DNA from: Actinomycetota bacterium
GTDB taxonomy: Bacteria > Actinomycetota > Thermoleophilia > RBG-16-64-13
NCBI GenBank assembly: GCA_012514635.1
Contig: JAAYZX010000004.1
Coordinates: 1 to 42,703, forward strand
DNA length: 42,703 bases
Reading direction: 5' to 3'
Shown: one piece after another, positions 12,665-32,153 of the stretch
Position numbering within the stretch: the first letter of the stretch is position 1
Layout of the letters: every line of letters begins with the position of its first letter
Notes under the pieces: generated by a model
Database searches by the model: none
What the model was told of the DNA's origin: nothing
What the model saw: the letters and a program-made list of their open reading frames with translations, nothing else
Made by a program: the position numbers and the translations under genes

Positions 12665-12977
12665 GGGGCCGAGGGCGGGCGGCGGGGCGGAACGAGACGG
12701 GACGCCGGCGGCAAAATGCCACCAGGCAGGTCCGCGCCTTCGTGGCTTCGAGGCAGATTGGATGCGTTCCCCCAAAGTATATATAAATTTTGGTTGCTGC
12801 CGATATAGATATTAGCCTTCTTTATCGTATGCCGGGCTTCGAGCCGTCCGCCGGGTGTTGTACCATAGGGGACGGCTCGTCCATGTCCGGTGCAAGAAAG
12901 AGGGGGCCCGCGGCCCGGTTCTAGGTCTACGGTTCGGTAACAGGGCCGACGGCCTCGTGCAGCCCGAGGGGGTGCGG
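12665..12977 (+). promoter_or_regulatory. Leader of the defence operon, with AT-rich promoter zone and inverted repeat
   Basis: This 313-bp gap contains a conspicuously AT-rich patch at about 12775-12830 (TATATATAAATTTT and on), the most likely promoter for the downstream unit. After it, a perfect 10-bp inverted repeat (CGAGCCGTCC at 12840-12849, GGACGGCTCG at 12870-12879) flanks a 20-nt spacer. It could be a regulator site or an RNA hairpin in the 5' leader. The frame of the helicase is open from 12855, but the likely start is 12978. Confidence 0.45.
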
Positions 12978-15900
12978 ATGGACATCTTCGATCTTCACAG
13001 TCGGCTTATTGAGGACTACCAGCAGTACGTGGAGAGCTTCATCCGAATTAAAGACGGGCGCATTCGCGGCCGGGTCGATGAAGCGATAGATGGGGGCCTC
13101 TTTTGGCCCGCTCCCTTAGCGCAGCTGAACCCTTCCTTCGAATCGGGCGGCCGGATCGCCGAACTGGTGACCGCCGATGTGCTCCATCCGGAGTGTGAGC
13201 GGGTATTTCGGGTGGCCAAGGACCAAGACGGTACGGGGAAGCCCATCATTCTCCACCGTCATCAGGCCGAGGCCGTGCGCGCTGCCGCCTCCGGGGACAA
13301 CTACGTGCTGACTACGGGGACCGGCTCCGGCAAAAGCCTCGCTTACATCATCCCCATTGTGGATCGGGTGCTTCGCGAGGGCTCCGGCAAAGGTATTCGC
13401 GCGATCATCGTCTATCCCATGAATGCCCTGGCCAATAGCCAGGCAGGAGAGCTGACCAAGTTCCTCTGTGACGGCTATCCAGACGGCAAAGGCCCCGTCA
13501 CCTTTCGTCGCTATACCGGCCAGGAGTCGGACGAGGAGCGGCAGGAGATCATCGGCAGCCCGCCGGATATTCTTCTTACGAACTATGTGATGTTGGAGCT
13601 TATCCTTACCCGTCCCAAGGAAGAGGGCTTGATCGGGGCGGCGCAGGGTCTGCAGTTCTTGGTGCTGGACGAGCTACATACCTACCGTGGGCGGCAGGGG
13701 GCGGATGTGGCCTATCTGGTGCGGCGGGTACGTGACCGCTTGGCGCCCGGAGGACTGCAGGTGGTGGGAACATCGGCGACGTTGGCCGGTCCCGGCTCCT
13801 ACGACGAGCAGAGGGCCGAGGTGGCGCGAGTGGCCTCGCAGCTGTTTGGGGCATTGGTGAAGCCTGAGCGGGTCATCGGTGAGACGTTGCGTCGCGCCAC
13901 GGCGCCGGCGTCGTTGAATGACCAGGCCTTCATGGAGGCGCTTCGTGACTCCATAGCAGAAAGCGGGGGCCCGGTTCCAGAGCGATACGAGGATTTCTTG
14001 GCCCATCCGATGGCGCGCTGGATCGAAGGAGCGTTGGGCGTGGAGCCTGATCCCGATACCGGGCACCTAGTGCGCGTGCGGCCCAGGAGTATCAGTGGGG
14101 AGGAGGGTGCGGCCCAGGCTCTGTCCGATCTTACGGGCGCTCCGAGGGAGGCGTGCGCTGAGCGCATCGCCGATTTCCTGCTCGGTGCCGGCCGATGCGA
14201 GCGTGATCCGGTCACCGGCTTCCCGCCGTTCGCCTTCCGACTGCATCAGTTCATCAGTCGGGGTGACGCCGTGTACGCCTCACTTGAGCGGGGGACGGAT
14301 CGCTATCTGACCACCAATGCTCAGCAGTATGTACCGGGTTCGCGGGACAAGGTGCTTTTCCCGTTGGCCTTCTGTCGCGAATGCGGACAGGAGTATTACG
14401 TGGTGCGCTGCCTTGAGGATCCCGGCGGTGGGTGGGTGTTCACGCCCCGTCTGGTCTCCGAGCGGGTTACTAAGGAAGACCGTACCGCGGGGTTTCTATA
14501 CCTCGGCGGCGCCAACCCGTGGCCCGAAGATGGGGACGCCGTGCTCGATCGCCTGCCCGAGGACTGGATCCAGCTGACCAACGGTGGGCGGAGGGTGCGC
14601 AGAGATATGGTGAAGAGGCTGCCGCAGGCGGTCCGCGTGCTCCCTAACGGGGTCGCCGGCGAAGGGGTCGCCACCGGCGCAAGCGCCCCCTGGGCAGCCG
14701 CCGGGAGGGCTGCAGATCACGGGGTGGCCGCCGGTGACGTCACCAGCGATGGCATCAACGCCACCCCCGGCGCAAGCGACCCCCGGGCTGCCGCCACCAC
14801 CGATGGCTCCACCACTGCCACCACCGCCGACGCAGTGGCCTGTCACTACCTGCCGGCACCGTTCAGGTTCTGTCTCTCCTGCGGGGTGTCCTACGCAGCA
14901 CGCATCGGTGACTTCGTCAAACTGGGACAACTGGGCTCGGAAGGGCGGAGCACGGCCACCACCATCCTGGGCCTGGCGGCCATCCGCAATCTGCGCGCCG
15001 ACACTGATCTTCCCCTACGCGCACGCAAGCTTCTCAGCTTCACCGACAATCGCCAGGACGCCTCGCTGCAGGCCGGCCATTTCAACGATTTCGTGGAGGT
15101 TGATCTTCTGCGCTCGGCGCTCTACCGGGCGGTGGCGGAGGCGGGGGAGACGGGCATTCGCCACGACATGCTGACCCAGAGGGTCTTCGATGCGCTGGAT
15201 CTACCTCTGGAGCAGTATGCCGCCGATCCTACGGCCAACAAGTACGCCGCCCTCACCAACACGCGGGCTGCTCTGCGCAGAGTGATTGGCTATCGACTGT
15301 ATCGAGATCTGCAGAAGGGTTGGCGCATCACCCTGCCCAACCTGGAGCAGTGTGGGCTTCTCAAGATCGATTACGAGTCGCTCGACGAGCTGTGCGCCTC
15401 CGAAGAGGAGTGGGCCGGGACTCACGCGGCTTTGGTGACGGCCGCCCCTGAGCAGCGCAGCGCCATCGCCCGCACCATGCTCGATTGGATGCGGCGTGGG
15501 CTCGCCATCAAGGTGGATTTCCTGCAGGCCGAGTCGCAGGAGGGCCTCAAGCAACAGAGCAGCCAGCACCTCTGCGCGCCCTGGGCCATCGACGAGCGGG
15601 AGAAGCTTGAGACCTCTCGCATGGTATTCCCGCGCTCCTCCAGGCGCGACGACTCTAGAGAGCACCTCTTCCTCTCGGGGAGGGGAGGCTTCGGTCAGTA
15701 TCTGCGGCGTCCCACCACCTTGCCGCAGCATGATGCTCGGCTGCCGGTGGCGGAGGCGGAGATCATCATCCGGCAACTGCTCGAAGTTCTGCGCCGGGCC
15801 GGTCTGGTGGAGCCCGTGAGCGAAGGGAAGGGGGTTGAGGTCCCCGGATACCAGGTTCCGGCGGCGGCCATGATCTGGAGGGCCGGCGACGGCGTCACTC

Positions 15901-18410
15901 CCTACCACGACTTCATCCGGGTGCCGAGTCCACCGGCGGGCGGCGGTCGCGCTAACGAGTTTTTTCTCGGTTTCTACAAGAACACGGCCCGCTCCATCGT
16001 CGGCATCGAGGCCAGGGAGCACACCGCCCAGGTCGCCTACTCTGACAGGGAGGAGCGGGAAGAACGTTTCCGCGAGGGAAGACTTCCCGTTCTCTTCTGC
16101 TCTCCCACCATGGAGCTGGGGGTGGATATCGCCGAGCTCAACGTGGTCAACATGCGCAACATTCCGCCCAACCCGGCCAACTACGCGCAGCGGAGCGGGA
16201 GGGCGGGCCGCAGCGGTCAACCCGCCTTGGTCTACAGCTACTGTACGGTGGGGAGCCCACACGACCAGTACTTCTTCAAGCGCCCGGAACTCATGGTGGC
16301 GGGCGCGGTGACGCCGCCGCGGCTCGATCTGGCCAACGAGGATCTCATCCGTGCTCACATACACGCCGTGTGGCTGGCGGAGACCGGGTTGTCGCTGGGC
16401 AAGTCGTTGGTTGAGCTGCTCGACGTGGGTGGCGACGACCCGACGCTGGCCCTCCAGGAACAGGTGCGAGCTGCTATCGAGGCCAAGATGCCCTTGGAGA
16501 GGACGCGGGTTCGGGCCGCATCGATTCTCGACGGTTGCCGGGATGAGCTCGAAGAAGCCGACTGGTACAGCGAGGGTTGGCTGGACGAGGTCTTGGAGCA
16601 GGTGGCGCTCCGCTTCGACCGGGCCTGTGACCGCTGGCGCAGCCTCTACCGCAGCGCGCTCAGCCAGCGGGAGACCCAACACAAGATCGCGGGCGATCCT
16701 TCGCGGAGCGCTCCGGACCGAGCCTTGGCCAAGCGTCTTCGGGCCGAGGCCGAGCAGCAGATGAACCTGCTCACCGACGTCGATAGGCTGCTGCAATCCG
16801 ACTTCTACAGCTACCGCTACTTCGCCAGTGAGGGCTTTCTCCCCGGCTACAGCTTCCCGCGACTGCCACTGTCGGCGTTCATCCCGGGCAGGAGGGTGGG
16901 GGCCACAGGCAGGAGAGCGGGTAGGGGCTTTGGGGAACAGGAGGAGTTCCTGCAGCGGCCGCGGTTCTTGGCCATTTCCGAGTTCGGTCCCCGGGCCATC
17001 GTCTACCACGAGGGGGCGCAGTACGTAATCAACAAGGCCATCCTGCCGGTGAGGGAAGGGGAAGATTTGACCCAGAACCGGGCCAAGATCTGCTCCCAGT
17101 GCGGGTACCTGCATCAGTTCGAGGAGGGCGACGGCCCCGATCTGTGCAGTAGTTGCGGCGCCTACCTAGGCCAGGCGCTCACCAATCTGTTCCGTCTGCA
17201 GAATGTGTCGACCCAGCGGCGTGAGCGCATCACCTCTGACGAGGAGGAGCGCATGCGACAGGGCTACGAGTTGGCCACCGCCGTTCGCTTGGGCCACGAC
17301 GGCGTCAAGATGCACGGCAGCACGGCGATGGTCACGGCCGCCGCCGGTGGAGCGGCCACTGCGGGTGGAGCGGCCGTCCGTGCGGGGGAAGCGGGGGGCC
17401 CCGTCGCCAAGCTCACCTACGGGCACGCGGCACTGATCTGGAGGATCAATAAGGGCTGGGCCCGGCGGAAGGACAAAGCGCAACTGGGCTTCGTCCTGGA
17501 TATCGAACGGGGCTACTGGGCCAAGAACGAGGACGACGACCTCGACGATGACGACCGGGACCCGATGTCGCCGCGCATCGCCCGCGTGATCCCCTTTGTG
17601 GAGGACCACCGCAACTGTCTGTTGATAGACATGGCCACGCCGCTCACCGCCACCGAGAACGCCTCCCTGCAGGCGGCGCTGAAGCGCGCCGTGCAGGCCC
17701 GCTACCAGCTGGAGGACAACGAGCTGGCGGTGGAGTCGCTGCCCGGCGACGACGATCCCCGCCGCATCCTTCTGTACGAGGCGGCGGAGGGCGGAGCCGG
17801 GGTGCTTCGCCAACTCCTGAATCCGGGAGCGCTGAGCGCGGTGGCGCGGGAGGCCTTGTCACTCTGTCATTTCGATGCGGACACCGGTGAGGATCTTCGG
17901 CGCGCACCCCGGGCCAAAGAGGACTGCGAGGCCGCCTGCTACGACTGCCTCATGAGCTATCAGAACCAGCGCTACCATCAGCTCCTCGATCGCCAGACGA
18001 TCAAGAACGTACTGCTCCAGTTGCGCGACGCCGGTGTGGAGGCTTCGCCCACCAACCTGTCCCGGACCGAGCATCTCCAGGTGCTCATGAACCAGGCGGG
18101 CTCTGAACTGGAGCGCTCGTGGCTCGGTCTGCTGGAACGGCAGAATCTCCATCTCCCTTCGCACGCGCAGAAGTTGGTGGAAGCCTGCGAAACCCGTCCC
18201 GACTTCCTCTATGCGGAGGAGCAGGTAGCCGTGTATATCGACGGGCCGCCGCACGATTTCCCGGAGCGCCAAGCGCGCGATCATGCCCAGACGGAGGCCA
18301 TGAACGATTACGGTTATACGGTGGTGCGTTTCCACCACCAGGACGACTGGGTAGCGATCATCGACCGGTACCCGTATGTGTTTGGAAAGGTCGAAGGAGG
18401 CGCGTCGTGA
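12978..18410 (+). CDS. Giant DEAD/DUF1998 helicase with C-terminal Vsr-like domain (DrmA/DruE-like)
   Basis: This superfamily 2 helicase of 1810 residues has Walker A TGTGSGKS near 112-119, the DEAH-type box DELH near 231 and SATL near 264. The second RecA core has [10 protein letters not shown] near 1040 and the arginine-finger motif [10 protein letters not shown] near 1072. Cys pairs (FCRECG, FCLSCG, CSQCG with CSSCG) suggest zinc binding. The DUF1998 region lies near 1580-1690, with GGAGVLRQL and [12 protein letters not shown]. The last 100 residues ([21 protein letters not shown]) match Vsr/DUF559-type restriction-endonuclease folds. DrmA of DISARM and DruE of Druantia share the helicase-DUF1998 layout. 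ATG 12978 has GAGGGG upstream. It heads the defence unit. Alanine/glycine-rich inserts lie near residues 560-615 and 1450. Confidence 0.85.
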
Positions 18411-18580
18411 GGCGTGGCGCGAGGTGTGGCGCCACGGCCGGCGCCCGGGTTGGGGCCGCGTCGGGCGCGACGCCGAGCCGGGCGGCACCCCGTATGGGCG
18501 TCTTCGCCGTGGCCGCAGCCGGCGCCGCTGCCGCGCCGCCGGGCCGTGCCGCCGGCGCCCCCGAAGGAGGCGGCGCATGA
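18407..18580 (+). CDS. 57-residue Ala/Gly/Pro-rich micro-ORF between the two helicases
   Basis: GTG 18407 overlaps the helicase stop (GTGA) and follows a consensus AAGGAGG eight bases upstream. The frame ends at TGA 18578-18580, overlapping the next start as ATGA. The predicted peptide is basic at the start and then almost wholly Ala, Gly, Pro and Arg (FAVAAAGAAAAPPGRAAGAP). It has no recognisable domain. Its role may be only to carry ribosomes from one helicase gene to the next; the composition resembles the low-complexity inserts within the flanking proteins. Real translation is unproven. Confidence 0.45.
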   Translation: MRRGARCGATAGARVGAASGATPSRAAPRMGVFAVAAAGAAAAPPGRAAGAPEGGGA

Positions 18581-21429
18581 GTTTTGCCGTGGGTTCTCTG
18601 GTGCGGGCTCGAGGGCGGGAGTGGGTGGTTCTGCCCGAATCCGAGGGCGATCTGCTGGTGCTCCGCCCGCTGCGCGGCACCGAGGATGAGGTCACCGGCG
18701 TCCTGCGGACCCTGGAGAAGGTGGAATCCGCACAGTTCGCTCTGCCCGACCCCGGTGATCCGCGGCAGATCGGCGACTATCGCTCGGCGCGGCTGCTGCG
18801 CGACGCCGTGCGCCTCGGCTTCCGTTCGAGTGCCGGTCCGTTCCGCTCCTTTGCCGCCGTGGCGGTGGAGCCGCGCCCGTACCAGTTGGTGCCGCTGCTG
18901 ATGGCGCTCCGTCTGGACCCCGTGCGCATCCTCATCGCCGACGACGTGGGCATAGGCAAGACCATCGAGGCGGGATTGATCGCCAAGGAGCTCTTGGCCC
19001 GCGGGGAGGTGGAGCGCCTGGCCGTGCTCTGTCCGCCGGCCCTGGCCGAGCAGTGGCAGGGAGAGCTCAGCGACAAGTTCCATATCGATACCGAATTGGT
19101 GCTCTCGTCCACGGTGAGGCGACTCGAACGCCATTGCGGTCCCAACGAGTCCCTCTTCGACCGCCACCCCTTCGTGGTGGTGTCCACAGACTTCATCAAG
19201 TCGCCGCGCCACGTGGAGGAGTTCAAGCGGGCCTGTCCGGAGATGGTCATCGTGGACGAGGCCCACACCTGCGCCTCCGCCGGCGACGGTCGCAGCGCCC
19301 AGATCCAGCGCCACAGGCTGGTGGCGGGTCTGGCGGCCGACCCCACGCGCCACCTCATCCTGGTCACCGCCACGCCTCACAGCGGCAAAGAGGAGGCGTT
19401 CCGGTCCCTTCTGGGATTTCTTGATGAAGAATTCCTGCAACTTCCCACTGAGCTTGGCGGGAACCACAATCGTGCTCATCGCCAACGGCTTGCTCGGCAT
19501 TTTGTCCAACGCCGCCGAGGCGACATCAAACAGTACTTGGACGAGGATACACCCTTCCCCGCCCGCGAAGAGGCCGAGGACACTTATAAACTTTCATCCG
19601 AATACAAGAAGCTTTTCGACCGAGTGCTTCGTTATGCTCGGGAGACGGTGCAGGATGCGGCCGGTGACCATCGTCGTCGCGTGCGTTGGTGGTCGGCGTT
19701 GGCGTTGCTGCGTTCGCTGGCCTCCAGTCCCGCAGCGGCCGCGGCCACCATGCGCACCCGGGCCGCCGCCGCCGACACCGAGACTTCCGAAGAGGCCGAC
19801 GAGATCGGTCGCCGCACGGTCCTCGATCTCATGGACGCCGATCTGTCCGAAGGAGTCGACGTCATCCCCGGCGGCGACGCGGACGAAGAAGGTGAAGAGG
19901 CCGGCGCCCGCCGCCGTCTGCTGGAGATGGCCCGCGAGGCCGACGCACTTCGAGGCGCCAAGGACACCAAACTCAAAAAGGCCGTGAAGCTCGTCTCGGA
20001 GCTTCTGGCCGACGGCTACCGTCCCATTGTTTTCTGCCGCTTCATCGATACCGCCGAATACGTGGCCGAGGCTATGCGCAGGGCATTGAAGGGCACCGAG
20101 GTGGCGGCCGTGACCGGCACCCTCCCCCCGGACGAACGCGAGATGCGGGTGGCCGCCCTCGCCGAGCATCCCAAGCGGGTGCTGGTGTGCACCGACTGCC
20201 TGAGCGAGGGCATTAACCTGCAGGAGCACTTCGACGCCGTGCTCCACTACGATCTCTCCTGGAACCCCACTCGCCACGAGCAGCGCGAAGGACGCGTGGA
20301 TCGCTACGGCCAGCGCAGCGACAATGTGCGCGTCCTTACCTACTACGGCACCGACAACCAGATCGACGGCGTGGTGCTGAACGTGTTGTTGCGCAAACAT
20401 AAGGCCATCCGCAGTTCGTTGGGAATATCCGTGCCGGTACCCGTCAATACTGAAGCTCTAGTAGAGGCTCTGCTTGAAGGGATCCTTCTTCGGGAGAAGA
20501 GTGGCGGGAGCCCCGATCAGCTCATGTTCGAGCTGGACGATCTCGAAAACCTCGTCGAACAGCGCGACACGGTCCACCGTGAATGGGAAGTGGCGGCCGA
20601 CCGGGAGAAGCGCTCCCGGACCATGTTCGCGCAGGAGACCATCAAGGTGGGCGAGGTGGCGCAGGAGCTGTCTGAGATGCGTGCGGCCATCGGCAGCAGA
20701 CTGGATGTCAAGCACTTCATTCACGATGCGCTCCGGGCCAACCGGGCTGTGGTGACCGGCGACGAGGCGGTCAAAGTGGATCTGGCCGAGACGCCGCGGG
20801 CGCTCCGTGATGCCATGGGCCTCTTCGATAGCGACGACTTCCAGGGGCGCTTCGAGTTGCCCGTGGCCGATGGGGAGGTGTACCTCTCGCGCACCCATCC
20901 GTACGTGGAGGGTCTCGCCGCCCACACCGCCGACTCCGCTCTGGATGGACTCGAAGAAGCCCCGGCCAAACGGATGGGAGTGATCCGAACAACCGGGGTA
21001 GCGAAGCGGACCACGCTTCTGCTCCTCCGTCTGCGCTTCCACATCAGTGATGTTGTGGGCCGGCAGGGGGCGCTGCTGGCCGAGGAGTCCCAGTTGATCG
21101 GGTTCCAAGGAGCTCCGAGCGGCGCCGAATGGCTGACCGGCGAAGAGGTGGAGGAGCTTCTCGAGGCGACTCCGGGCGCATCCATCGGCCTCGACCAACA
21201 GCGCGATGCGTTGGAGCGCATCCTCGCCGACTTCGATGAGGTGGCCCCCCATCTGCAGAGCGTGGCGGAGGAGCGCGCTCAGGTCCTCGCCGACTCGCAC
21301 GACCGGGTGCGACGGGCCGTGACCCGAGCCGGCGGCCGGACGGCCGGCGCCGCGACCAAGGTGACGCCCGAGCTCCCGGTGGACGTGCTGGGTGTATACG
21401 TGTATCTGCCGGGTGGGGGTGGGGTGTGA
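18577..21429 (+). CDS. SNF2-family helicase (DrmD/BrxHII-like)
   Basis: This 950-residue Swi2/Snf2 ATPase has DDVGIGKTIEAGL (Walker A) near 120, VDEAHTC (DEAH box) near 225, and TATPHSGK near 263. The C-terminal RecA lobe has IVFCRFIDTAEYVAE near 485 and CLSEGINLQ through REGRVDRYGQ near 540-578. Such helicases appear as DrmD in class 1 DISARM and BrxHII in some BREX loci, where they are thought to translocate on invading DNA. ATG 18577 is chosen because AAGGAGG lies six bases upstream; the longer reading from 18376 would add an implausible arginine-rich tail overlapping the previous gene. An Ala-rich insert sits near residues 385-410. The preceding micro-ORF overlaps it by four bases. Confidence 0.9.
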   Translation: MSFAVGSLVRARGREWVVLPESEGDLLVLRPLRGTEDEVTGVLRTLEKVESAQFALPDPGDPRQIGDYRSARLLRDAVRLGFRSSAGPFRSFAAVAVEPRPYQLVPLLMALRLDPVRILIADDVGIGKTIEAGLIAKELLARGEVERLAVLCPPALAEQWQGELSDKFHIDTELVLSSTVRRLERHCGPNESLFDRHPFVVVSTDFIKSPRHVEEFKRACPEMVIVDEAHTCASAGDGRSAQIQRHRLVAGLAADPTRHLILVTATPHSGKEEAFRSLLGFLDEEFLQLPTELGGNHNRAHRQRLARHFVQRRRGDIKQYLDEDTPFPAREEAEDTYKLSSEYKKLFDRVLRYARETVQDAAGDHRRRVRWWSALALLRSLASSPAAAAATMRTRAAAADTETSEEADEIGRRTVLDLMDADLSEGVDVIPGGDADEEGEEAGARRRLLEMAREADALRGAKDTKLKKAVKLVSELLADGYRPIVFCRFIDTAEYVAEAMRRALKGTEVAAVTGTLPPDEREMRVAALAEHPKRVLVCTDCLSEGINLQEHFDAVLHYDLSWNPTRHEQREGRVDRYGQRSDNVRVLTYYGTDNQIDGVVLNVLLRKHKAIRSSLGISVPVPVNTEALVEALLEGILLREKSGGSPDQLMFELDDLENLVEQRDTVHREWEVAADREKRSRTMFAQETIKVGEVAQELSEMRAAIGSRLDVKHFIHDALRANRAVVTGDEAVKVDLAETPRALRDAMGLFDSDDFQGRFELPVADGEVYLSRTHPYVEGLAAHTADSALDGLEEAPAKRMGVIRTTGVAKRTTLLLLRLRFHISDVVGRQGALLAEESQLIGFQGAPSGAEWLTGEEVEELLEATPGASIGLDQQRDALERILADFDEVAPHLQSVAEERAQVLADSHDRVRRAVTRAGGRTAGAATKVTPELPVDVLGVYVYLPGGGGV

Positions 21430-21465
21430 GGCGACGGATCATCACTGCATCAGCGTCATCTCGGG

Positions 21466-21477
21466 TACCATATGGTA
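21466..21477. promoter_or_regulatory. 12-bp perfect palindrome upstream of hicB
   Basis: TACCATATGGTA lies 30 bp before the HicB start in the only sizeable gap between the SNF2 and HicB genes. It is a candidate operator for an internal promoter of the toxin-antitoxin pair. Confidence 0.4.
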
Positions 21478-21507
21478 GGTGGCAAGTAGTCGAAGGGATT
21501 TGTAGTC

Positions 21508-21714
21508 ATGAAGTTCTTCGTTACGATGGACAGGGACGAGGATGGAGCCTGGATCGCGGAGTGTCCGTCTATCCCCGGCTGCGTGAGTCAGGGGGATACT
21601 CGGGAGGAGGCTCTTGCCAACGTGCGGGAGGCGATCGTCCTCTGCTTGGAGGTCCGCGCCGAACGTGGTCTGCCGCTCACCATCGAGACCAAACTGGTCG
21701 AGGTGGCTCTCTAG
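21508..21714 (+). CDS. hicB: HicB-family antitoxin
   Basis: This 68-residue protein has the HicB partial RNase-H-like fold: KFFVTMDRDEDGAWIAECP, the IPGCVSQGDT turn and EEALANVREAI. HicB neutralises the HicA mRNA interferase by direct binding. The protein stops after this domain; the C-terminal ribbon-helix-helix or HTH that many HicB proteins use for autoregulation is missing, so repression by HicB alone is doubtful. It precedes hicA with no spacer. An AAGGGA site lies a little upstream. Confidence 0.9.
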   Translation: MKFFVTMDRDEDGAWIAECPSIPGCVSQGDTREEALANVREAIVLCLEVRAERGLPLTIETKLVEVAL

Positions 21715-21945
21715 ATGTCTCCGTTGCCCTTACTGAGTGGGCGCGAGATCGTAAAGGTGTTCGAGTCCCTCGGCTGGGAAGTCGCACGTCGGCGGGGCAG
21801 TCATATCGTGCTGGTCAAGGATGGATCGTCGGCGACGCTCTCTGTTCCAGATCATCGGCCGGTCGCCAGGGGCACACTACGTTCTCTCATACGCGCGGCG
21901 GATCTGACTGTCTCGGAGTTCGTCGCCGCGGCAGACGAGTTGTAG
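21715..21945 (+). CDS. hicA: HicA-family mRNA interferase toxin
   Basis: This 76-residue toxin has the double-stranded-RNA-binding-like fold. The catalytic histidine is His30 in RRGSHIVLVK, preceded by LSGREIVKVFESLGW and followed by SVPDHRPVARGTLRSLIRAADL, all typical of HicA. It cleaves mRNA when free of HicB. Its ATG follows the hicB stop directly (TAG ATG). The placement inside a defence operon, between helicase and methyltransferase genes, would let damage to the operon release the toxin. That role is an inference; HicBA pairs are also common passengers. Confidence 0.92.
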   Translation: MSPLPLLSGREIVKVFESLGWEVARRRGSHIVLVKDGSSATLSVPDHRPVARGTLRSLIRAADLTVSEFVAAADEL

Positions 21946-21958
21946 CAGGCTTCGCTCA

Positions 21959-21980
21959 ATCCGGCGCTTCTTCGCCGGAT
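21959..21980 (+). other. Intra-operon hairpin between hicA and the methyltransferase gene
   Basis: ATCCGGCG, loop CTTCTT, CGCCGGAT forms a perfect 8-bp stem in the 57-bp gap. No U-tract follows. It may be an RNA-processing or attenuation element that sets methyltransferase level separately from the toxin pair. Confidence 0.45.
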
Positions 21981-22002
21981 CTCCTAGGTGGGGGCTTCTG
22001 AC

Positions 22003-26132
<4,130 letters not shown>

Positions 26133-26136
<4 letters not shown>

Positions 26137-26453
26137 CAACGACCGCTCGTTCTCACTTCAATCGGGACATCCAAAGAGCGGAGGCGATGCTCGATCAAGT
26201 GCGGTATCTGGACGATGACGTCACAAGGACGCAGCTTGCTCTGGATCTACGCGTTGCCGCAATCGCTATGGCAGTCGGCGCCATGGATGCTCACCTCTGC
26301 AACAAGTACGTAGACTGCCCCTCGACGGTCCTTAAGGCCTACGCGAAGGGTCGCTGGAATGGCTCCCTTCCAAAAGCCTGCGCAGATGCTCGTCTTCCAG
26401 CCAGCGACGTGCTCGACACATCCAGGAAGGCGGGGCCTGCGTGGGGCATTTGA
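26133..26453 (+). CDS. N-terminal part of a HEPN-type protein (split gene, part 1)
   Basis: The 106-residue product starts inside the methyltransferase stop (ATGA) and contains a helical segment (RAEAMLDQVRYLDDDV, then RVAAIAMAVGAMDAHL) that fits the first helices of RiboL-PSP-type HEPN proteins. It ends at TGA 26451-26453, directly followed in the same frame by ATG. In relatives, as I recall them, the sequence continues without a break into the part encoded by the next feature. It therefore looks like one HEPN gene interrupted by a nonsense codon, or two chains made by termination and reinitiation. Confidence 0.6.
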
Positions 26454-26855
26454 ATGGCAGCCAGGACAATCATGGAGATGGACAGCATGCTGTCCATTTC
26501 TCGCCTAGACGATGTGTTCAATCCAATTCTGGCTTCGGGTCACAAGCTCTGGGCGGACTTCATCGTGGCAATGGTGGCGCACGGCCGGGTTCGTCTGACG
26601 GGGCCCAAGACGGCTGCCGAAGTAGCGGCGCTATCTGGCGAAGACAAAGAGAAGGCCACGAAGAAGGCGATTGACGTGTTGCAGAAGCGCATAGGGTGCA
26701 TTGTCAAAACCCGGCACGATTGGATCCATAACTGTGGTAGGCCCAAGACCGTCATCCAGAAGTGCTCGTATGGCGAAGCTTGCTGCCGCGTGCGCGACGT
26801 GAAGTTGTTCGTCGTCACCCTCGACAACTTCATAGAAACACATCGTCTGGCGTAG
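26454..26855 (+). CDS. C-terminal HEPN domain with R-x4-H motif (split gene, part 2)
   Basis: The 133-residue product carries SISRLDDVFNPILASGHKLW and the catalytic HEPN motif as R87-x4-H92 in TRHDWIHNCGRPK. This is the active-site signature of HEPN ribonucleases used as abortive-infection or toxin effectors. It is in the same frame as the previous ORF with no gap (TGAATG), so reinitiation could supply it. The motif residues are retained, which argues against simple long-term decay. Which RNA it would cut, and what keeps it inactive, cannot be read from sequence; the upstream helicases, the methylase or the following 1171-residue protein are possible partners. Confidence 0.6.
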   Translation: MAARTIMEMDSMLSISRLDDVFNPILASGHKLWADFIVAMVAHGRVRLTGPKTAAEVAALSGEDKEKATKKAIDVLQKRIGCIVKTRHDWIHNCGRPKTVIQKCSYGEACCRVRDVKLFVVTLDNFIETHRLA

Positions 26856-26930
26856 GTCATGGGTCTAGCGAGCCTTCAGTTGGCGCGGCGCGCGCCCGAA
26901 AATCTCCTATCAAGGACAGGGGGGAATGGA

Positions 26931-29900
26931 ATGAACAAGGGCTTCGACAATGAACTGGACCGGCCAGTGCAGGGCAAGAGGCCTTGTTCGTTGCAGTTCA
27001 TGGATGCTAGACAGGAAAGAATTCAGCGGAGGCTTCAGCTCATCGGCCCTGGTCCGGCAGCGTTCTTTGGCGATTGCTGTCGTCTAATCAGCCGTGACTG
27101 CGACGTGGCTTCCAAGACGCATCTCATCGGGCACCTACTTCGAGAGATTGAGAGCGCCCTAAGAGATGTTCTCGAGCCCTACATAGTGCCTGAAGGCGCC
27201 GAGGGGTCAAAGCGCGGCAGAAGCTCAGACAAGCATGCGGATGAGATTCGATCGGTCGCTGTGGCTCTCGACATGTCGGAAGACGACCCAGTATTGATCA
27301 CTTGGCTCAGCCTTGCCGGTCAGAAGTCTGGTGCGGCCTTGCACCGGCGCGCCCACAGACAAGACCTCGGTTTTCGGAAGGTGGATCCCGAATTTCAGCA
27401 GTGGTGGGAGAACGTGCAGTCTGTCTTTGACGCCGTTCTCCAGAGGTTTGAAGAAAGGTACGCGGCGGTCTTCGAGATCCTAGACCGGCTTCTGGCGAGC
27501 CAACCAGATGTAGACACTCTGAGAAACCACGTCCCCAACAATCATACCGTGCATCGCTACTTCTTCTCGAAGCTGAACGATCCATCCTGGGTGGCACCCC
27601 TCTTGGAAGCAGGGATACTTGAGCGTCCGCCCGAACCGGAGATTGTAGAAGATGGTGGTGGCGTCCGTTTTCCAGGGTGGCCCATAGTCGAGTACTTGGA
27701 AAGGATGGCCGCTGGCCATCCCGGAATTCATCAGGATGTTCTGGACGCAGTTCTCCTGGTTCCGGAGACGACCAATGTGCGCGTGCACCACGGCTTGCTT
27801 CTGGTGGCGCTGAATTTGCCACCAGCCATGAGCAAAGAACTTGCCTCAGAGGTCATTCGATGGATGAACGGCCCCCACAGACCGCTATCTGGTATTGAGT
27901 ACGCGAAACTCGTTCGGTGTCTTGCCGTTGGCGGAGCAGAAGCTGAGGCGCTCGACCTTGCCGCAGGTCTCTTTGCGATTTCTGGGGACGGAGATAGCCT
28001 GGCTCCGGATGCTGCTCCTCTGCGCATGAGTATCTGGGAATACGAGAAGTGCCTGGACGTAGCTCTATCGTCGCTAGCGGAAGCCGCGCCGTTGCCCACC
28101 CTCACGCTCATGTCTAATCTGCTTGAGGAAGCGATTATGGTAGGAGGGCACGTACCCGGAGGGCCCGGGGGAGACCATGGTGGGAGCGATCTGTCGCATC
28201 TCTGGCGACCTGCAATCGAGGATCACGCTCAGAATCGGGATTACGACAATCTCCCAGGCTTGCTCATCAAGGCGACCAGGGACGTGGCTCTTACGACTGC
28301 GGAGAAAAGACCCGAGCTCATACCAGAATTGCTTGCAGCACTCCAAACCAGGGCCCTTCGAGTGTTCCGACGCATCGCTCTGCATATGCTTCGAGTCTGC
28401 TCGCAGAACGCCCTTGATGCCGTCCGGGCGAGTCTTCTTGACCGCTCTTTCTTCGACGACCCCGGCTTGCTGCACGAGTACTACCACTTGCTTCACGACT
28501 GCTTCGGCATTCTTTCTCTCGACGATCAGGCGGTGATTCTCGGCTGGATTGACGAGGGTCCGGACAGCGGTGAGCGGGCGACTTGGTTTCTAGAGCAGGA
28601 AGGGAGGCTACCGACTGACGACCAGGTCACGAACTACTGCGACTTCTGGCGCATAAAGAAGCTAATGCCTATCAAGGAGCTTCTGCCCGAGGCGCGGAAG
28701 CAGTGGTTCGATCAAATGGTCGCGAGGCTTGAGCTTCCTGAACACCCTGATTTTGCGGTTTACCGCGGGACTTTCGTGGGGCCCACGAGCCCCTTGGAAC
28801 TCGAGGACATCCAGACCATGGAGCCCTCGAGACTCGTAGAGTACCTTGGAAAGTGGGTTCCTTCACAGGAATGGGGCGCACCGACCCCCGGAGGCCTTGC
28901 CAGGCTCGTAACTGCGGCAGTGGCGGACGATCCGTCGCAGTACCTTCCCGTTCTTGCCGAGATCTCGGGAATCGAAACGACCTATGTGCGCGGCATCATG
29001 GAGGGCTTTCGCCTGGCAGTCGGTGACAATAAGCCTTTCGACTGGGGACCGGTGCTTGATCTCGCGAAACAAGCTGTCCTATCACCTTGGCCAATTTCAT
29101 CTGCACCAGGTGAGGTATACGAACGTGATTCTGACTGGAGCGGGACTCGCAAGACAATCGCCTCGGTGATCGAAGCGGGGCTGAGACCGGGAGAGACGGA
29201 GATCCCGGTTACTTTTCGCGACGTCGTTTGGCAGATTCTGAGCTCGTTGGCCGACGACCCTGACCCCAGCATCGCGGACGAAAAACGCTATGGTGACGGC
29301 GGCTTCGACGCTGCGACGATGGCTATCAATACGGTTCGTGGGCAGGCCTTGCATGCTGTGATTCAGTATGGATTGTGGGTGGCGAGAGAGGTTGCCACGA
29401 CTCGAGACGACAAGGGAAACCCTCCCCCAGACGGAGCGGCTGTCCCCGAGCTATGGCCGATCCTTGATGGACATCTTGACACCGTCCGAGATCCCTCGCT
29501 CGCGATTCGTTCGGTCTATGGTCAGTGGTTTCCTTGGATTCACTTTTTAGGAAGAGACTGGGCCGTCTCGCGGCTGGACGCGATTTTCCCTCGCGACCCG
29601 GACCATGCACCGTGGTGGACTGCCGCGTGGATCGCCTATGTGATGCACAGTCGACCCTTCGATGATGTCCTCCCGATTCTGAGGCCGACCTACGAGCATG
29701 CTGTCAAGCTTATGAAGGCGGATGAGGAGCCACTGTTGTTTGGCGACAGACCCTCCGAACGCCTCGGCGAGCACCTCGCTGCCTATGTGTGGCGCGGGGC
29801 GATCTCCATTGATCCGGTCGACCTTCTGCTGGCCGAGTTCTGGGGCAAAGCGGACGTCAGTCTTAGACGGCATGTGCTCACCTACATCGGTCTGAGTCTC

Positions 29901-30446
29901 CACGAATGGCCTCCTGCCGCTACTGATCCGACACTCGCTCCGGTTGTTGACCGGCTGAAGGCTTTCTGGGCATTTGCGCTATCCCAAGCCGACCAGTCGG
30001 AGGGAGGCAGTGAGCTATCGGAATTCGCTCGGTGGTTCGCGTCGGGGCAGTTCGATGACGACTGGGCGTTCGACCAGCTTGAGCTTGCGCTGCAGAAGAC
30101 GAGTCTGCTGAATGGCGCGCGTCTGGTTGCCGAACGCCTTGGCGAAGTCGTGGGAGCACAGCCTTTGCGCAGTGTGCTCATACTAGACAGACTCGTTCAG
30201 AGCGATGTCGAAGGATGGCGCATTCTCGGTTGGGCGGAAGAGGCCAAGAAGGTTATCGAGAAGGCCATGGAAGCCAAGGATGCGAAGACGCAGGCCGCCT
30301 GCGTCGCGCTGGTGAATCGCCTGGTCGCGAAGGGGCACATGGGATTCAGAGAGTTGCTTGACAAGAATGACAATACTCACGGGGGCGAAGAGACGCGACC
30401 AGGAAGGACCCAGATCGACAGGTATCGCAACTTCGATGGGGCGTGA
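26931..30446 (+). CDS. Large helical protein of unknown function (1171 residues)
   Basis: I do not recognise a named family. The N-terminal 200 residues include FFGDCCRLISRDCD, a THLIGHLLREIESALRDVL helix, and LHRRAHRQDLGF followed by a long helical segment, suggesting an all-alpha domain perhaps related to HEPN or its relatives. A segment NHVPNNHTVHRYFFSKL leads into about 900 residues of alternating hydrophobic helices without motif, which looks like HEAT-type repeats. There is no signal peptide, membrane segment, Walker motif or nuclease motif. ATG 26931 is chosen for the GGGGGG six bases upstream; the frame is open from 26859. Position between a HEPN gene and an ATPase-nuclease pair suggests a sensor or scaffold in defence. 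Confidence 0.7.
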   Translation: MNKGFDNELDRPVQGKRPCSLQFMDARQERIQRRLQLIGPGPAAFFGDCCRLISRDCDVASKTHLIGHLLREIESALRDVLEPYIVPEGAEGSKRGRSSDKHADEIRSVAVALDMSEDDPVLITWLSLAGQKSGAALHRRAHRQDLGFRKVDPEFQQWWENVQSVFDAVLQRFEERYAAVFEILDRLLASQPDVDTLRNHVPNNHTVHRYFFSKLNDPSWVAPLLEAGILERPPEPEIVEDGGGVRFPGWPIVEYLERMAAGHPGIHQDVLDAVLLVPETTNVRVHHGLLLVALNLPPAMSKELASEVIRWMNGPHRPLSGIEYAKLVRCLAVGGAEAEALDLAAGLFAISGDGDSLAPDAAPLRMSIWEYEKCLDVALSSLAEAAPLPTLTLMSNLLEEAIMVGGHVPGGPGGDHGGSDLSHLWRPAIEDHAQNRDYDNLPGLLIKATRDVALTTAEKRPELIPELLAALQTRALRVFRRIALHMLRVCSQNALDAVRASLLDRSFFDDPGLLHEYYHLLHDCFGILSLDDQAVILGWIDEGPDSGERATWFLEQEGRLPTDDQVTNYCDFWRIKKLMPIKELLPEARKQWFDQMVARLELPEHPDFAVYRGTFVGPTSPLELEDIQTMEPSRLVEYLGKWVPSQEWGAPTPGGLARLVTAAVADDPSQYLPVLAEISGIETTYVRGIMEGFRLAVGDNKPFDWGPVLDLAKQAVLSPWPISSAPGEVYERDSDWSGTRKTIASVIEAGLRPGETEIPVTFRDVVWQILSSLADDPDPSIADEKRYGDGGFDAATMAINTVRGQALHAVIQYGLWVAREVATTRDDKGNPPPDGAAVPELWPILDGHLDTVRDPSLAIRSVYGQWFPWIHFLGRDWAVSRLDAIFPRDPDHAPWWTAAWIAYVMHSRPFDDVLPILRPTYEHAVKLMKADEEPLLFGDRPSERLGEHLAAYVWRGAISIDPVDLLLAEFWGKADVSLRRHVLTYIGLSLHEWPPAATDPTLAPVVDRLKAFWAFALSQADQSEGGSELSEFARWFASGQFDDDWAFDQLELALQKTSLLNGARLVAERLGEVVGAQPLRSVLILDRLVQSDVEGWRILGWAEEAKKVIEKAMEAKDAKTQAACVALVNRLVAKGHMGFRELLDKNDNTHGGEETRPGRTQIDRYRNFDGA

Positions 30447-30510: not shown

Positions 30511-31617
30511 ATGATTCGGCGTCTGTACATCGACAACTACAAGTGCCTCGTCAACTTTGAGCTTCCGCTGCAAGAAGCGACTCTACTGCTGGGTCCCAAC
30601 GGTGCTGGTAAGACCTCGGTGCTGGACGTGGTGTTCGCGCTGCGCCGCCTACTTAGCGGGCAGGTGAAGGTCACCGATGCCGACGCCTTTCCCTCGGCGA
30701 CTCTGACGCGTTGGCAGAGCCGGAAGATTCAGACCGTGGAGATGGACGTGCTGCTGGACAGTGAGGAGATTCGCTATCGTCTGGAGATTGAGCACAGAAG
30801 GGCTACTGGCGAAGCCCGCATCATTGTTGAGCGACTAGAGTCCGGTAAGAGGCCTCTCTTTGTGTTCGAAAAGGGCGAGGTCCACCTATATCGCGATGAC
30901 CATTCCGAAGGCCCGGTATTCGGGGCTGACTGGACCGAATCAGCTCTTGCTCGGGTTTCGCCGAGGGACGACAACACGAGGCTCAATCAGTTCCTAGACT
31001 CTATCCGCAAAACCATCGTCTGCGGTCTATATCCTGCGGGCTTCAGAACCGAAGCCTCGGCAGCAGACGCGATGCTCAGGCGGGACGCCAACAACTTCGC
31101 CGCCTGGTATCAGCATTTAGTCTTGGAGAGACAGGAGAAACTACCTGAGCTCTTCGACGCTCTTCAGGAAGTAATCGACGGCTTCCGTAGTCTGTCCATG
31201 CCTCCCGTTGGCTTGGACACCCGCGCGTTGATGCTAGCTATTGAAGAACACGGGCAGCGATATGAGCTCAGGCTCGATGAGATTTCCGACGGCCAGCGTG
31301 CGCTGGTCGCCCTTTACTCTCTTGTTAGGCTTGCGGCTGGACAGGGATATACACTTTTTCTCGATGAGCCAGAGAACTATCTGGCACTTGCCGAGATCCA
31401 ACCATGGCTCATCGAGCTGGTTAACGCCTCGGGCGGAGAGGTACCTCAGGCGGTCCTCTGCTCGCACCACCCTGAGTTGATTGACTACCTCGGGGTAGAC
31501 CACGGGCTAGTACTGCGCAGGGAGAGCTCGGGCGTCACTGTGGTGCGTCCGGCGAGTGAGCTCGCAACTGATGGCGGACTCAGGCTCTCAGATATCATCG
31601 CTCGCGGGTGGGAGTGA
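30511..31617 (+). CDS. AAA_21/OLD-type ATPase (AriA-like)
   Basis: This 368-residue ABC-like ATPase of the OLD/RloA type has Walker A GPNGAGKT at 28-35, the signature-like ISDGQRAL near 257, Walker B LFLDEPEN near 281, and the switch histidine in CSHHPELIDYL near 317. The first residues, MIRRLYIDNYKCL, are typical of the class. OLD ATPases sense or load nuclease partners in defence. Unlike OLD itself it has no C-terminal TOPRIM domain; that domain is supplied by the next gene, which overlaps it by one base. This two-gene layout resembles PARIS (AriA plus AriB). A GGAGGAGG ribosome site precedes ATG 30511. Confidence 0.88.
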   Translation: MIRRLYIDNYKCLVNFELPLQEATLLLGPNGAGKTSVLDVVFALRRLLSGQVKVTDADAFPSATLTRWQSRKIQTVEMDVLLDSEEIRYRLEIEHRRATGEARIIVERLESGKRPLFVFEKGEVHLYRDDHSEGPVFGADWTESALARVSPRDDNTRLNQFLDSIRKTIVCGLYPAGFRTEASAADAMLRRDANNFAAWYQHLVLERQEKLPELFDALQEVIDGFRSLSMPPVGLDTRALMLAIEEHGQRYELRLDEISDGQRALVALYSLVRLAAGQGYTLFLDEPENYLALAEIQPWLIELVNASGGEVPQAVLCSHHPELIDYLGVDHGLVLRRESSGVTVVRPASELATDGGLRLSDIIARGWE

Positions 31618-32153
31618 TGCCCCGCAGGGTCAACATCGTCATTCTCTGCGAAGATACTCAACAGGGAGTTTTCGCCAACAGGTTCCTCGAGTTGGCAGGC
31701 AAGAGCATCAGAGTCATGCGCATCGAGAAGGGCCCGGGCGAGGCCTTTGTGCGGAAGCAGTTTCCCAAGGAATTGGCCTATTATCGGGCACGGAAGCACA
31801 AGGTCGACCAAGCACTCATTGTCATCATCGACGCGGACACGCTAGGCGTCACCAAGCGCGTGAAGCAGCTCGAGGCGGCCATCAGCGAGGCTGGCCAGGA
31901 CCCGCGAGGTGTAGATGAAAGGGTCGCGCTTTTTGTCCCCGCCCGCAATATCGAGACATGGATCGCCTATCTTGACGGTCAGACCGTCAACGAAAGCGAT
32001 CCTTACCCCAAGTTGAGGCTTGAAAGCGATTGCAGACGGGCTGTTCGCTGCCTTCATGACATGTGTCAGCGGAACGCCCTTCGCGAGCCTGCCCCGCCGT
32101 CGTTGAAACAAGCGTGCGACGAGTATCGCTCACGTCTGGGTAGGCAGATCTGA
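31617..32153 (+). CDS. Stand-alone TOPRIM-like nuclease partner of the ATPase
   Basis: This 178-residue protein has the TOPRIM signature: acidic E12 in VILCEDTQQG at the first strand and the DxD pair D72/D74 in VIIDADT. Then come VALFVPARNIETWIAYL and SDCRRAVRCL, which recur in the companions of AAA_21 ATPases. TOPRIM domains of this kind cut nucleic acids with metal ions in OLD and PARIS systems. ATG 31617 uses the last base of the ATPase stop (TGATG), so the two are translationally coupled. It lacks the longer body of DUF4435 AriB proteins, so it would be a compact variant. The nuclease role is inferred from the motif. Confidence 0.72.
   Translation: MPRRVNIVILCEDTQQGVFANRFLELAGKSIRVMRIEKGPGEAFVRKQFPKELAYYRARKHKVDQALIVIIDADTLGVTKRVKQLEAAISEAGQDPRGVDERVALFVPARNIETWIAYLDGQTVNESDPYPKLRLESDCRRAVRCLHDMCQRNALREPAPPSLKQACDEYRSRLGRQI

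Follow-up and report, generated by a model that had tools for sequence, protein, structure and literature searches.

A probable phage alarm protein that joins a DSR1-type C-terminal module to an undescribed front domain

The described system closest to the protein analysed here is defence-associated sirtuin 1 (DSR1), which is reported to halt phage replication while leaving the cell alive (PMC10952713). A literature search found no trigger for DSR1 itself. More is known of DSR2, whose HEAT and C-terminal domains enclose a cavity in which phage tail tube protein is bound, and regulate the NADase at the N-terminus (PMC11263360, PMC10981675); the C-terminal regions of DSR2 and DSR1 have limited sequence homology (PMC10973363). 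In Tha, a tail-activated HEPN system, a small helical RNase domain is switched on by a phage structural protein (PMC11087260). Another large protein that may be a sensor, DruH of Druantia III, comes from loci that include a DruE-like helicase; it belongs to the YjiT family and combines Ig-like domains with mixed alpha/beta ones (PMC13192584).

The window, that is, the whole stretch of 42,703 nucleotides analysed (contig JAAYZX010000004.1 of an Actinomycetota bacterium), contains a defence island, as a sequence-only reading of this DNA had supposed: DISARM/Druantia-like helicases, a DNA methyltransferase and a HEC-01/PARIS-like ATPase surround the gene discussed here (Table 1). The helicase and methyltransferase genes make up a DISARM/Druantia-like operon (12855-26136) that fits no single PADLOC type. 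They are followed by two in-frame ORFs (26133-26855), the first ending in a single TGA after which an ATG follows at once. These have the appearance of a single HEPN-like gene with a stop inside it, or of two tightly coupled genes, and a plasmid search returned no homologue of them. On its other side, the gene precedes an AAA ATPase pair and an ImmA/IrrE protein; the ATPase and its small partner (30511-32153) constitute a HEC-01A/HEC-01B or PARIS-like pair.

The frame of 1171 residues proposed by the sequence-only reading is borne out by its translation, which runs to the stop codon with no internal stop, and by full-length homologues of 61% (L002) and 47% identity (L and G numbers denote loci and genomes). 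In its two parts alike, low nonsynonymous divergence (0.22-0.50) goes with saturation or near-saturation at synonymous sites. Given this divergence pattern and the full-length homologue L002, the gene is certainly coding, and it is under strong purifying selection. A second ATG opens the same frame upstream and would give 1195 residues. The downstream ATG is the likelier start, because a G-rich Shine-Dalgarno-like stretch lies directly 5' of it (aggacaggggggaatgga-ATG) and the start of the closest homologue lies near the same position.

Table 1. Features of the window that bear on the protein and its surroundings
Feature	Position	Strand	Remarks
DEAD helicase with MZB domain and DUF559 nuclease-like C-terminus, DruE-like	12855..18410	+	Pfam, PADLOC
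SNF2-type helicase, DpdE/DrmD-like	18577..21429	+	PADLOC
Eco57I-type N6 DNA methyltransferase, closest to DISARM DrmMI	21988..26136	+	
Possible HEPN-like gene, first half	26133..26453	+	one TGA before next ORF, same frame
Possible HEPN-like gene, second half, R-HDWI-H	26454..26855	+	no Pfam match
Protein described here	26931..30446	+	1171 aa; in-frame alternative start at 26859 gives 1195 aa
N-terminal helical domain, ~170 residues	26997..27506	+	no database match; conserved GPGPAA, HLxREhESxLR, AHR
Conserved helix HLLREIESALR, residues 92-102	27132..27164	+	H92, R95, E96, E98, S99, L101, R102 invariant 5/5
HRRAHRQD, residues 162-169 of the 1195-aa frame	27342..27365	+	only A165, H166, R167 invariant
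DSR1-type helical-repeat (HEAT-like) C-terminal module	27507..30443	+	~950 residues; profile, alignment, model
Stretch matching PADLOC Dsr1 profile PDLC04166	28197..29888	+	residues 447-1010
AAA_21 ATPase, HEC-01A/mad3/AriA-like	30511..31617	+	probably separate defence pair
ATPase partner, weakly HEC-01B-like	31608..32153	+	

The protein had been described as belonging to no recognised family. This no longer stands, since the PADLOC Dsr1 profile matches it with E=3.9e-36, over positions 549-1073 of the 1227 in the profile. Profile-profile alignment (hhalign) of the C-terminal modules of the window-protein group with those paired with SIR2 or TIR gave 99.1% probability over 632 columns, and an all-against-all BLAST network links the module with those of DSR1-type loci. 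On these sequence comparisons, the C-terminal part of ~950 residues is homologous to the helical, sensor-side region of DSR1. The NCBIfam Dsr1 model (NF041818) gives 22 bits against a cut-off of 1400, a weak score that is expected if the model is tuned to whole SIR2-bearing proteins. In the PADLOC search of the window protein, Dsr1 was the only match returned, with no Drm match, and identity with DruH was rejected on this result. A Pfam scan up to E=5 returned no family, in agreement with the earlier statement that the protein has no ATPase, nuclease or membrane motif, and a sequence search of the PDB gave nothing meaningful.

The likeness to DSR1 (PADLOC PDLC04166/04167, NCBIfam NF041818) extends to a similar total size and to the putative layout of an N-terminal effector and a C-terminal sensor. 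Unlike DSR1, the window protein has no SIR2 domain detectable with Pfam, PADLOC or NCBIfam, and its neighbours are HEPN-like, methyltransferase and AAA genes; an NADase output is unlikely because there is no SIR2 domain. The protein is thus not a strict DSR1, and its sequence places it in a family defined by the C-terminal module of DSR1.

By DSSP, the full-length structure model is almost wholly helical, with about 55 helices, and its fold matches in the PDB are karyopherin/HEAT solenoids. These matches are weak, and the model, which rests on two sequences only (window and L002), has a mean pLDDT of only 41.5. The structure search suggested with the sequence-only reading gave helical, karyopherin-like solenoids from a model too poor for conclusions. 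HEAT-type repeats in the C-terminal module are a reasonable prediction from it, and the description of a large HEAT-like protein of sensor type finds agreement in the match of the C-terminal part to the DSR1 sensor side.

Ahead of this module stands a domain of ~170 residues (the N-domain) that is common to five proteins: those of the window, L002, L014, L015 and a Streptomyces plasmid (L026). The other four are 36-68% identical to the window copy over the domain, which is under purifying selection. In addition to the residues of the conserved helix and of HRRAHRQD listed in Table 1, the invariant positions include GPG, D72, C74, H126, W149 and L161. No match to the N-domain was obtained in Pfam, NCBIfam, PADLOC or PHROG, or in the PDB by sequence. 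Its model is all-helical with a moderate pLDDT of 63, and a PDB fold search with it returned nothing significant; the highest probability listed, 0.23 for the HEPN toxin 7ae9, was not significant. Within the phylum the domain occurs in 3 of 396 genomes, always in this architecture. A weak match in G716 (E=5.8e-4) appeared spurious on reading the sequence. A divergent cousin in L114 (G806) aligns by profile with E=6.9e-5 and 63% probability over 83 columns, and retains HxxRE and possibly the AH pair. The gene concerned (L114:6156-9758) encodes a 1200-aa protein in which the divergent N-domain (LVSHCVREL ... SFAHLDRH) is combined with the C-terminal module, and it does not adjoin the methyltransferase system. 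Viral contigs held no relative of the N-domain, the C-terminal module or the whole protein, and none was found in phages.

A HEPN relationship had been suggested for the N-domain on the strength of HRRAHRQD. This reading was rejected, as motif and profile tests were both negative. The RX4-6H motif is not conserved in the five homologues: the position five residues before H166 is an invariant Leu, and a chance R..H match elsewhere in the N-domain is confined to the window copy (0 of 4 homologues). Alignment of the N-domain with a profile of 19 sequences from the Pfam HEPN family PF05168 gave 1% probability in hhalign, against 99.8% for a split-half positive control. Other HEPN families were compared by single-sequence scan only, and the Pfam scan of the five members returned no HEPN family. 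Tha and other HEPN anti-phage RNases may offer an analogy of function, from which the window N-domain differs in having neither a conserved RX4-6H nor a HEPN profile match.

The C-terminal module keeps varied company. In the phylum sample, it occurs with a separate SIR2 gene that overlaps or adjoins it upstream (L016, L023, L024, L058), and in L058 it carries a TIR domain at its own N-terminus. The latter locus (L058:1021-5167), where the SIR2 gene lies just upstream of the TIR fusion and an Eco57I-type-looking methyltransferase adjoins, brings two NADase-type effectors together. On haloarchaeal plasmids, proteins of ~1500 aa (L027:5526-9977, L028:5595-10127) have the module behind a STAND-like NTPase (weak Pfam nSTAND_NTPase5 match), itself preceded by apparent membrane helices on reading of the sequence. 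Six genes (L017-L022, e.g., L017:7887-12740) encode fusions of ~1600 aa, where a DUF255/YyaL (Thioredox_DsbH) part of ~650 residues precedes a module 28-37% identical over ~950 residues; their thioredoxin-like/YyaL N-terminal part sets them apart from the window protein. Four of the six come from one family of the phylum, and two or more of the loci, L017 and L018 among them, contain biotin-pathway-like genes. The fusion genes look like housekeeping genes, and because the module is also found joined to DUF255/YyaL beside biotin genes, it is not confined to defence. In a tree of the module, the YyaL fusions form one separate clade (support 100/100). The same tree neither shows nor excludes a single clade of N-domain copies, and it is compatible with one joining of the two parts or with several.

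The N-domain occupies the effector position. We judge the chances to be evenly balanced that the protein is a single-polypeptide anti-phage sensor-effector which works like DSR1 and DSR2, with the N-domain as its effector. In such a protein, the HEAT-like solenoid (residues ~217-1175) would bind a phage protein, serving for both sensing and oligomerisation, the helical N-domain would replace the SIR2 NADase, and binding of the trigger by the solenoid would switch it on. The effector would most plausibly be a small helical enzyme, for example an RNase, using H92/R95/E96/E98/R102 and A165-H166-R167. Since the N-domain takes the place occupied elsewhere by SIR2 or TIR, and its polar residues are conserved, the simplest interpretation is that it acts as an effector. 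The sensor-effector proposal is favoured further because SIR2, TIR and TM-STAND NTPase are found beside or fused to the module at the same position, because the distribution is scattered (3 of 18 family genomes; the module in 4 of 149 class genomes; a remnant in G851), and because each of the four chromosomal N-domain copies, the window's included, adjoins a DNA methyltransferase. For three of them this is the DISARM-like enzyme; for the fourth, L015, it is one gene of a putative type II RM pair, as the copy lies behind a DNA methyltransferase (PF01555) and a PD-(D/E)XK-like gene (a reading of the sequence, with no Pfam match). The proposal is weakened because the N-domain matches no known enzyme and its model, of moderate quality, has no significant fold match, and because the module is not specific to defence.

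By analogy with DSR2, the C-terminal module most likely senses a phage protein, the presumed shared principle being that a C-terminal solenoid or cavity senses a phage protein and switches an N-terminal effector; catalysis by the N-domain, its chemistry and abortive infection would be further elements of the same proposal. Unlike DSR2, the window protein has no SIR2, and no sequence match between the two was found. The analogy is also weakened because the homology between the C-terminal regions of DSR1 and DSR2 is itself limited, and abortive infection is not to be assumed because DSR1 reportedly stops phage without cell death.

The main rival is a two-gene module, in which the protein would be sensor and adaptor, the small exchangeable gene upstream would be the effector, and the N-domain would recruit or restrain it. 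All four chromosomal loci have a co-directional effector-like gene within about 100 bp upstream, and SIR2 is likewise a separate gene in the four loci named above. However, the upstream genes are mutually unrelated (HEPN-like in the window, DUF3644 in L014, DUF2971 in L002 and PD-(D/E)XK-like in L015), whereas a single N-domain would be expected to have a single kind of partner. In G851, a further genome of the family, a DUF3644 gene (L113:1776-3247) that is 93% identical to that of L014 persists, although the window-protein homologue behind it has decayed to a remnant of 80 residues. No co-directional gene adjoins the copy on the Streptomyces plasmid, and the upstream gene in the window may be broken by its TGA while the sensor is intact. 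For these reasons the two-gene module is rather unlikely.

More improbable still is that the protein does not stand alone but serves as accessory subunit to the DISARM-like helicase-helicase-methyltransferase system that directly precedes its gene. Among 18 genomes of the family, about nine have the methyltransferase and three the window-type protein. In these three the gene lies downstream of the same DISARM-like methyltransferase, as an accessory subunit might, with one or two small genes between, which differ (HEPN-like, DUF3644, or a 199-aa ORF with DUF2971); these family loci are related by descent and not independent, while L015 and the plasmid copy are. Against such a subunit, the remaining methyltransferase-bearing family members mostly have unrelated genes in the slot, L015 and the plasmid copy lack such a system, and the G+C content of the gene (0.583) differs from that of the methyltransferase gene (0.650). 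With no Drm match, and present in three of about nine methyltransferase-bearing family genomes, the protein is not a core Drm component. The locus behaves as an accessory defence gene in an exchangeable slot.

It is just as improbable that the protein has no part in defence, the module being a general HEAT-like protein-binding scaffold and the window copy a housekeeping or regulatory one in the island by chance: the six YyaL fusions share the module, and some of them, in one family of the phylum, adjoin biotin genes, but they are a separate clade with a different N-terminus, and the N-domain copies are all rare and of scattered occurrence, each lying in a defence locus or on a plasmid. The expectation that relatives of this protein keep to defence loci thus holds for those with the same N-domain, and does not hold throughout for those that share only the C-terminal module, which include the six YyaL fusions, some of them next to biotin genes.

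Together with the sensor-effector reading, a broader proposal can be put forward tentatively, although as a whole it is somewhat likelier to fail than to hold: that the DSR1 'sensor' is a general plug-in with at least five kinds of partner (SIR2, TIR, membrane STAND NTPase, DUF255/YyaL and the N-domain), and that the N-domain is a new, non-HEPN death-effector enzyme. A literature search, with subscription journals mostly outside its coverage, found no description of this combination of N-domain and C-terminal module.

We regard the protein as a probable phage alarm protein, whose undescribed front domain would be an effector or an adaptor. DSR1 has been filed as a sirtuin, and here its sensing part occurs with other outputs. 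This leads us to expect a broader class of defence proteins, overlooked by profile tools or partly labelled as Dsr1, and it raises the question of why DUF255/YyaL proteins encoded near biotin genes should carry this module too. In the N-domain, this class offers a short and conserved candidate effector.
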